Below are positions 20,713 through 25,386 of a stretch of 64,000 nucleotides of DNA, in pieces. Origin of the DNA: Pseudidiomarina indica (GTDB lineage Bacteria > Pseudomonadota > Gammaproteobacteria > Enterobacterales > Alteromonadaceae). A model generated the notes under the pieces. That model saw only the letters and a list, made by a program, of their open reading frames with translations, made no database searches and was not told where the DNA came from. The stretch is from positions 124,001 to 188,000 of the forward strand of contig JAJUHK010000003.1 of assembly GCA_029279945.1 (NCBI GenBank), given 5' to 3'. The position numbers and the translations under genes are program-made. Each line of letters starts with the position of its first letter. Position 1 is the stretch's first letter.

Positions 20713-21634
20713 AAAACCACGCTTTGAGCTACGTTTTCTCCTACCAAAATATTGGTTAACGTGGCTCAGCGTCGGCATTCTATACACGATCTCTTGGCTG
20801 CCATATAGCTGGCAACTGGGAATGGGGCGTGTATTAGGTCGCCTGTTCTATCGTTTTGTACCACGCCGCGCTCACATTGCGCGGCGTAATCTTGAACTGT
20901 GCTTTCCTGATAAGTCTGCCGACGAAATTGAAGAGCTCGTCAAAAAAAATCTCGAAAATACCGGAATTGCTTTTTTTGAAACTGGTATGGCATGGTGGTG
21001 GCCTGATTGGCGCATCCGCCGTAAGTTACACGTATCTGGCGTAGAACATCTAAAAGCAGCACAGCGTGATGGTAAAGGGGTGTTGTTGCTGTTGTTCCAC
21101 TTTTTAAGTTTGGAAGTGCACGCGCGCTTACATGGCTTTGTACAACCTGCGGTTGGGCTTTATCGTCCACATAACAATGCGGTGATGGAGTTTTTGCAAA
21201 CCCGCGGCCGGGGTCGATCGAATAAATATTTAATTCCACGCACCGACGTACGAAGCATGTTGGAGGCGTTGAACCGTGGTGAGATTGCTGGCTATTTACC
21301 CGATCAAGATTATGGCCGCAAACGTACCGTATTCGCACCATTATTCGCAGTAGAACATGCCAGCACCACCACTGGTACATTATTATTTGCGAGTAATGCG
21401 AACTGTTCCGTCGTGCCTGTCACCTGCTTCCGCCGAGATGATGGACGCGGCTATGATATGACCTTTTACCCAGCCTTCGACAATTTCCCAACGGGTGACG
21501 ATGTTGCTGATGTAACTCGGATAAATCGTATGATCGAGTTCGCAATACAACAAAAACCCGATCAATACATGTGGATTCACCGACGCTTTAAAACGCGTCC
21601 GAACCAAGACGATCCGGATTTATACCAGTCTTAA
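20699..21634 (+). CDS. lpxL: Lipid A biosynthesis lauroyl acyltransferase
   Basis: HtrB/MsbB-type inner-membrane acyltransferase that adds a secondary acyl chain to Kdo-lipid A. The 311-residue protein matches E. coli LpxL throughout, with LLPKYWLTWL and an N-terminal anchor (about 17-35), RRNLELCFPDKS, the catalytic HFLSLE block (H134, E139) and the terminal QYMWIHRRFKTRP. The ATG at 20699 lies inside the tolC end; a TTG one codon earlier is possible. No convincing ribosome site is seen, so translation may depend on tolC. It converges with the glnE fusion, both stops using one TTAA. Confidence 0.94.
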   Translation: MNVIEKPRFELRFLLPKYWLTWLSVGILYTISWLPYSWQLGMGRVLGRLFYRFVPRRAHIARRNLELCFPDKSADEIEELVKKNLENTGIAFFETGMAWWWPDWRIRRKLHVSGVEHLKAAQRDGKGVLLLLFHFLSLEVHARLHGFVQPAVGLYRPHNNAVMEFLQTRGRGRSNKYLIPRTDVRSMLEALNRGEIAGYLPDQDYGRKRTVFAPLFAVEHASTTTGTLLFASNANCSVVPVTCFRRDDGRGYDMTFYPAFDNFPTGDDVADVTRINRMIEFAIQQKPDQYMWIHRRFKTRPNQDDPDLYQS

Positions 21635-24600: not shown

Positions 24601-25386
24601 GGCTGCAGTGGGTTGCTCGTGGAAACAAGTATCATGGTGTTGCCAGTGAGCCAGCCCAACAGCAATGCCTTGGAACAATCCACTATTTTCATGAGCTTCC
24701 AAAAAGTGTTCTGAATATAAAGGCTTAGGTTTTGCCTTAAGTTGCGATAAACCTGCTAGCAGATAACCACGGGCGGCTTTACTGAGACTTCCTAGTTGAG
24801 TGCCAGTGATGTTCAGCAATTGCCGGGCAAGTGTTAGCGCATCAGTTAAGTCTCCCCCTTGCAGCTCCAATTCAATCTCGCAGATAGCTTGCTCCTTGAT
24901 TCCAGCGAAGACTTGGCCTTCATCAAATACCAATTCAATGCGGCCTTGACCACTTGCGATATGCCAGCGATGACGAGTGAAGTTCGTTTGAAACAACTGC
25001 TGTAACTGCGAATTGATGCTAGTTAACGGGAAGTCGGCTGGCCAAATACCTGCATCAAAGTGCGTAAGGTCTGGATGATCGTCGTCAACAGGGCAATTGA
25101 ATTCTGGCCGAGCGTGGATTCCAGCCGTTACCGCTCCTGCTAATTTGACGGTTTGCTCACGTTGTAGTCCGCATTGGCGGATACGTAGCCCAATATCATA
25201 ATGACGCAATTGCAAATCTGGCGTGTCAAAATAACTGTTTGCCAGCTCAACCACAGTTGGCGACGTTCCTGCCAACTGCTCACACAACGCAAAAACCTTA
25301 TCTCGTTGAGCTGGGTCAACCAGTAATTTTAGCTCTATTTCTTGGCTCACAAATAGTACTCTAAACGTTGATTTTACTTGTTTCAT
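21631..25386 (-). CDS. glnE: Fusion: YgiF-type CYTH triphosphatase + glutamine synthetase adenylyltransferase/removase
   Basis: A single 1251-codon frame. Residues about 13-215 match E. coli YgiF (inorganic triphosphatase, CYTH fold), keeping the metal motif EIELK (E16, E18, K20). Residues about 222-335 resemble the first half of the YgiF CHAD domain. From about 345 to the end it is GlnE, which attaches and removes AMP on glutamine synthetase, with both nucleotidyltransferase centres: [18 protein letters not shown] (469-486) and [17 protein letters not shown] (994-1010). E. coli has YgiF (433) and GlnE (946) as adjacent separate genes; here about 130 residues around the seam are missing. A GTG at 25350 fits the YgiF start better than the ATG used here. 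Confidence 0.93.
   Translation of the reverse strand: [1251 protein letters not shown]

Follow-up and report, generated by a model that had tools for sequence, protein, structure and literature searches.

An in-frame fusion of a YgiF-type tunnel triphosphatase with GlnE in two Pseudidiomarina species hints that the two enzymes work together

We describe a single open reading frame that joins a triphosphate tunnel (CYTH) domain of the YgiF type to GlnE, which turns glutamine synthetase on and off. The frame lies in a 64,000-nucleotide stretch of Pseudidiomarina DNA (assembly GCA_029279945.1, contig JAJUHK010000003.1), referred to below as the window, and its counterpart is found in a second species of the genus, both bacteria being marine. 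The architecture appears to be new, and its parts are known; judged from titles and the opening lines of abstracts, no published description of a CYTH-GlnE fusion was found. Our preferred reading, to which we assign a probability of about 0.7, is that deletion gave rise to a single fused protein in which the tunnel enzyme and GlnE would both work and would be produced together at a 1:1 ratio. By alignment and codon comparison, the catalytic residues of the tunnel domain and of GlnE are intact, and coding constraint runs along the entire frame. That a tunnel triphosphatase and the switch of glutamine synthetase have been joined in this way hints that the two work together.

The domain content of the frame was established with Pfam, NCBIfam, and alignment (Table 1). 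These bore out an initial annotation of the letters alone, which had described one open frame with a CYTH domain, part of a CHAD-like domain, and a GlnE with both nucleotidyltransferase centers. Specifically, the Pfam CYTH model matched residues 15 to 208 of the fused ORF (96.6 bits, against a cutoff of 23.2), and two GlnE stretches were recognized by Pfam at 522.5 bits (cutoff, 24). The NCBIfam glnE equivalog PRK11072 aligned residues 334 to 1250 with profile positions 23 to 944 of 946 (1,126 bits; cutoff, 487), and the Pfam CHAD model had no match in the fused ORF. By sequence, each segment found its own relative in the PDB: ygiF (5a60), the N-terminal half of GlnE (1v4a), and the C-terminal half of GlnE (3k7d). 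Of the two halves of GlnE, AT-N is the one to which we presume deadenylylation belongs. Since P. indica has a TGA between an upstream ATG and the matching GTG, translation probably begins at this GTG rather than at the upstream ATG of the listed ORF. Counted from the GTG, the catalytic residues of the fusion carry the same numbers as those of E. coli ygiF.

Table 1. Features of the fused frame in the window (positions are those of the 64,000-nucleotide stretch)
Feature	Position	Strand	Basis
Whole fused ORF, 1251 codons (1239 from likely GTG start)	21631..25386	-	Same frame in P. indica
Likely start codon, GTG (codon 13 of listed ORF)	25348..25350	-	Upstream TGA in P. indica; unfused relatives align from same residue
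CYTH (triphosphate tunnel) domain with E4, E6, K8, R56, K69, E160, E162 (numbered from GTG)	24763..25344	-	Pfam, alignment
CHAD-like remnant: linker plus one predicted four-helix bundle (helices ~24385-24672)	24370..24762	-	Alignment, model
Seam between CHAD-like bundle and GlnE	24364..24384	-	Alignment, model
GlnE, glutamine synthetase adenylyltransferase/adenylyl-removing enzyme, essentially complete relative to genus	21634..24369	-	Profile, alignment
AT-N (deadenylylating) nucleotidyltransferase motif, 20 residues	23923..23982	-	Alignment to 1v4a
AT-C (adenylylating) nucleotidyltransferase motif, 19 residues	22351..22407	-	Alignment to 3k7d, titled adenylylation domain

The same fused frame occurs in P. 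indica (NZ_FMXN01000002), with 74% identity over residues 1 to 1249. Pairwise alignment of the two fusions required a single one-residue gap in 1,237 aligned residues, and none in the CYTH domain, the remnant, or the seam. Identity was 72% in CYTH (141/196), 47% in the remnant (63/133), and 78% in GlnE (712/908); the remnant value is that of the pairwise alignment, a poorer multiple alignment having given 45%. When the genus was searched with CYTH, all 26 genomes matched, and a long fused frame was present in two of them, the window genome (1,279 amino acids from stop to stop) and P. indica (1,244 amino acids). The initial annotation had raised the concern that a missing segment or frameshift near 24.35 kb might have created the joint, for which we found no supporting evidence. 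Because the assembly of another species has the same joint, a sequencing or assembly artifact is so improbable that we ruled it out, and the fusion is neither chance, a sequencing gap, nor an assembly error.

We compared the fusion with separate YgiF and GlnE proteins to determine what was lost at the seam. In the alignment, the CHAD-like part that was kept comprises 127 residues (200 to 326), made up of the linker, the first helices, and one further helix. Relative to YgiF of P. marina, this part lacks 135 C-terminal and 38 internal residues and has 4 additional internal ones (a net internal loss of 34), instead of the approximately 100 missing residues estimated earlier. GlnE begins directly after the seam, where the P. 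marina counterpart of the window's 14-residue stretch is VDKLARVTSISEFV. The fusion has 12 residues between the seam and the S of its SxF motif, against 38 before this S in E. coli GlnE; in unfused loci of the genus, the distance from the first ATG or GTG to the S is 10 to 20 residues in 23 of 24 cases and 44 in the remaining one. Because the spacing at the seam is that of the genus, GlnE is essentially whole, with little lost beyond its start codon. The approximately 30 GlnE residues that had been thought lost through fusion are mostly a difference between the genus and E. coli. Versions of the CYTH and GlnE alignments that mixed the two proteins were dropped and replaced.

Structure prediction helped to define what remains of the CHAD-like part. 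An AlphaFold2 model of residues 1 to 388 (mean pLDDT, 86) contained the tunnel domain, a poorly defined linker at 212 to 222, four remnant helices (227 to 245, 249 to 272, 274 to 296, and 299 to 322, the fourth briefly interrupted), and the first GlnE helix (328 to 348). All 10-residue blocks of the remnant from 231 to 320 had a pLDDT of at least 90. The seam, placed at roughly 24340 to 24400 by the initial annotation, falls inside that interval, between remnant helix 4 and the first GlnE helix of the model. The best PDB match of this model was full-length ygiF 5a60 (E = 6e-23; TM = 0.73 by query length; 389 columns; rmsd, 7.0), and a model of the remnant with the N-terminal half of GlnE (mean pLDDT, 78) matched 1v4a (E = 3e-26; TM = 0.60 by query). 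The remnant is thus modeled as one four-helix bundle. The portions of PMC6537752 that we drew on place the CHAD bundles of ygiF at residues 205 to 336 and 337 to 428, describe polyphosphate binding across a central pore in CHAD domains, and say that ygiF itself is without this pore. Given the helix count, the match to 5a60, and these published limits, the remnant would correspond to ygiF bundle 1 with its protruding part trimmed. The second four-helix bundle is absent from the fusion in both alignment and model, so that the two bundles of YgiF and of the CHAD module are not both present.

Separate, adjacent genes appear to be the ancestral arrangement. In 24 of the 26 genus genomes searched, ygiF and glnE are separate neighbors, and in all 24 glnE follows ygiF; measured from the end of the ygiF stop, the earliest ATG or GTG in the glnE frame lies anywhere from 1 nt upstream to 26 nt downstream. 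In E. coli K-12, ygiF, glnE, and hldE follow one another in that order, ygiF and glnE being 22 nt apart, in keeping with the earlier statement that these two are separate neighbors there. The initial annotation had also proposed that genomes with the joined form be listed, and had held that two separate genes in close relatives would speak against the fusion. Among the genus genomes searched, the list came to two species, the window's and P. indica, and relatives with two separate genes do exist; because a second species shares the fusion, however, these relatives reflect the ancestral state and not an error. The flanks of the fusion are common to the window, P. indica, and P. marina, the one unfused locus compared, and consist of what we take to be putA-like, acyltransferase-like, and tolC-like genes. 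In phylogenetic trees, the window and P. indica sequences formed one clade (support, 100/100 for GlnE and 100/99 for CYTH), and in the GlnE tree the fused pair fell inside a supported group of nine that includes P. marina and P. woesei. Because the fused sequences form one clade, the trees indicate that the fusion arose once, in an ancestor shared by the window species and P. indica.

At 6 of the 24 unfused loci of the genus (L024 to L028 and L048), ygiF and glnE are in the same frame and are parted by just the stop codon and 0 to 3 nt. Open frames of 1,409 to 1,466 amino acids in G006, G007, G013, G020, G025, and G038 were considered as fusions and rejected, each being two consecutive same-frame ORFs with an intervening stop codon. 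Locus L048, from a metagenome-assembled genome (G001), has a shortened YgiF (444-amino-acid frame) whose match to CYTH comes as two pieces and lacks the central part. This locus was excluded from the CYTH tree and from the rate and invariance counts; L029 (G038) and L049 to L056 (other genera) were likewise outside these counts.

To characterize the distribution of the fusion, we searched family, order, and class samples with the AT-C half of GlnE. The samples overlap, are not exhaustive, and do not contain P. indica. Among their listed matches, no further fusion was seen. In the family sample, 144 of 147 genomes matched, and among the 142 listed (G120 and G123 matched but are not listed), the window genome alone had a frame exceeding 1,100 amino acids. 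The order sample (133 of 148 matched) contained one other frame of this size, the 1,206-amino-acid GlnE frame of G507. Its CYTH sits in a separate frame of 442 amino acids, which excludes a fusion, and a CYTH search of the G507 family (50 of 56 matched) revealed no frame longer than 740 amino acids among the matches listed. The class sample (99 of 143 matched) had two such frames among the 97 genomes listed (G675 and G718 being the others), in G640 (1,321 amino acids) and G700 (2,222). These two, along with G516 (1,095), G027 (1,069), and G427 (1,055), were rejected as fusions; tblastn with the window CYTH gave no match at an E value of 1e-3 in the fetched stretches, which for G427 include just ~1.3 kb of contig upstream of the GlnE match. 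The stretches checked for CYTH did not include the class-sample GlnE frames of G704 (1,084), G699 (1,085), and G641 (1,058). Frames cut by contig ends cannot reveal a fusion, for example in G050, G430, and G531 (order), G096 (family), and G587, G643, G645, and G646 (class). A CYTH search of the family matched 392 of 395 genomes. Among the ~150 matches listed, from which frame lengths were taken, frames of ~210 to 300 and ~340 to 375 amino acids recurred beside the usual ~500, and partial or full loss of CHAD seems frequent in the family.

Both halves of the fusion look functional at the sequence level. Excerpts of PMC4641920 name E4, E6, R56, K69, E160, and E162 as the metal-site and catalytic residues of ygiF, and all six are kept in both fusions. 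The ExExK motif reported earlier is indeed intact (E4, E6, and K8). Across 23 unfused sequences of the genus, 68 CYTH columns are invariant. Of these, 61 are retained in the window and 63 in P. indica; those altered in both (G76, F110, Y172, R177, and R181) include no named catalytic residue. The corresponding numbers for GlnE, with 326 invariant columns, are 323 and 319, and both nucleotidyltransferase motifs are intact when aligned to 1v4a and 3k7d. Across the remnant and seam, the coding frame is free of stops, whereas the other two forward frames have 8 and 10 in the window and 3 and 9 in P. indica. Because dS between the two fusions was saturated, we used codon-position counts in place of dS estimates (NG86 and YN00). 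In the CYTH domain, 28 differences fell at position 2 and 121 at position 3 (195 codons; P = 7e-23), and position-2 differences were likewise far below position-3 differences in both halves of GlnE, indicating purifying selection. Constraint on the remnant was weaker, with 43 differences at position 2 against 80 at position 3 (133 codons; P = 8e-6).

CYTH has drifted more than expected relative to GlnE. The ratio of log identities (CYTH/GlnE) was 1.34 for the fused pair, compared with a median of 0.91 and a maximum of 1.20 for 253 unfused pairs; for 46 fused-unfused pairs, the median was 1.20 (range, 1.01 to 1.60). In the trees, CYTH gave the fused clade a longer stem than GlnE did (0.54 versus 0.35), and likewise a longer branch for the window itself (0.44 versus 0.22). 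At codon positions 1 and 2 combined, there was no significant difference between CYTH (74/390) and GlnE (299/1,816; P = 0.23).

The partners that GlnE would need are all found in the window genome. It has a glutamine synthetase with an LYDLPPEE adenylylation site, one PII match, and a GlnD_UR_UTase match in an 869-amino-acid frame that we read as GlnD. Each fused genome has one PII match, while G022, G010, G019, and G014 have two or three, and one PII of G022 adjoins an AmtB-like gene (recognized by eye at L112); loss of a second PII may have accompanied the fusion lineage. It is possible that triphosphate chemistry is tied to nitrogen control. The initial annotation had also invoked polyphosphate. 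This part of the proposal is unsupported, because the second CHAD bundle is lost and polyphosphate kinase PPK1 (PF02503) had no match in either fused genome, nor in the three close unfused genomes G022, G010, and G019. Among six genus genomes, PPK1 was found in G014 only.

The in-frame deletion suggested by the initial annotation is well accommodated by these results; deletion spanning the junction of two neighboring genes explains them best. We propose that, in the common ancestor, an adjacent ygiF-glnE pair underwent one or a few deletions that took out the C-terminal bundle of CHAD together with the stop codon of ygiF and the start codon of glnE. The product would be one polypeptide of 1,239 residues, presumably made as a single protein. 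Its tunnel domain would still hydrolyze short triphosphate, the remaining four-helix bundle would act as a rigid spacer, and GlnE, controlled by PII and GlnD as it is in E. coli, would adenylylate and deadenylylate glutamine synthetase. Most likely, both activities would as a result be produced at a fixed 1:1 ratio and held in one place. Set against this explanation are the occurrence of the fusion in just two species, from a single event, the greater-than-expected drift of CYTH, and the presence of in-frame GTG codons at residues 335, 338, 345, and 353 of the window that could start a separate GlnE. Continued synthesis of a separate GlnE from such an internal start strikes us as improbable: the GTG at residue 335 is found in both species, but by eye there is no good ribosome-binding site upstream of it in the seam, and the upstream frame has been kept open and constrained.

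Two further alternatives concern what the joining means. It could be nearly neutral, the stop having been deleted in a lineage for which the CHAD domain had become dispensable, so that being joined merely keeps each enzyme alive. We consider this a real contender, at somewhat below even odds. At 2.1 and 2.2 Mb, the two fused genomes rank among the smaller ones in the genus, CYTH drift exceeds that of unfused pairs, the remnant is far less conserved than the domains on either side, and CHAD shortening seems recurrent in the family among the matches listed; the coding constraint on CYTH, weaker on the remnant, and the equal length of the remnant in both species point the other way. Alternatively, the tunnel domain could directly regulate or feed GlnE, for example, by sensing triphosphate or by supplying phosphate for deadenylylation. 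Fusion of operon partners is often a mark of physical or pathway partners, and ygiF and glnE are adjacent in every unfused genus genome examined (24 of 24). Of 30 other relatives that have a GlnE match, 19 also carry CYTH within 12 kb of it on one contig; against this, in 9 the two lie farther apart than 12 kb or are split between contigs, and the other 2 have no listed CYTH match. Cellular phosphate is abundant, which also counts against this alternative. The tunnel domain may control GlnE directly, yet on balance we regard this alternative as unlikely. Equally doubtful is a specific form of it, in which the tunnel domain senses or turns over short triphosphate beside GlnE and thereby tunes adenylylation of glutamine synthetase, the unfused gammaproteobacterial pair forming the same complex noncovalently. 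According to excerpts of PMC3440374, E. coli ygiF is cotranscribed with the glutamine synthetase adenylyltransferase gene glnE, and its role is uncertain; this cotranscription favors direct regulation, and because of it the fusion is a useful pointer to a link between YgiF and GlnE, not proof of one.

A joint kept through divergence to 74% identity, with the named catalytic residues intact, makes the YgiF-GlnE link testable with one protein and in E. coli, and provides a usable lead on the unknown role of YgiF. It also suggests that the active site of a CYTH enzyme can survive the loss of over half of the CHAD-like domain. The fusion resembles E. coli YgiF, an inorganic triphosphatase (PDB 5a60/5a61), in its CYTH tunnel fold, numbering, catalytic residues, linker, first CHAD bundle, and glnE neighbor. 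Unlike the fusion, E. coli YgiF is a separate protein of 433 residues with a CHAD domain of two bundles (PMC4641920, in part) that Pfam recognizes. The Pfam CHAD model had no match in the three unfused genus YgiF proteins tested (L058, L066, and L072), the C-terminal half of which looks like a diverged CHAD domain. In comparison with CHAD polyphosphate-binding modules, as described in part of PMC6537752, the remnant would resemble the first ygiF bundle in size and place, but the fusion has neither a second bundle nor a Pfam CHAD match. Both nucleotidyltransferase halves of E. coli GlnE (PDB 1v4a and 3k7d) align with the fusion, although E. coli GlnE is a separate protein with a longer stretch before SxF. 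Finally, the adjacent ygiF and glnE of other Pseudidiomarina and Idiomarina have orthologous parts and, in P. marina, identical neighbors, but they remain two genes with an intervening stop codon.
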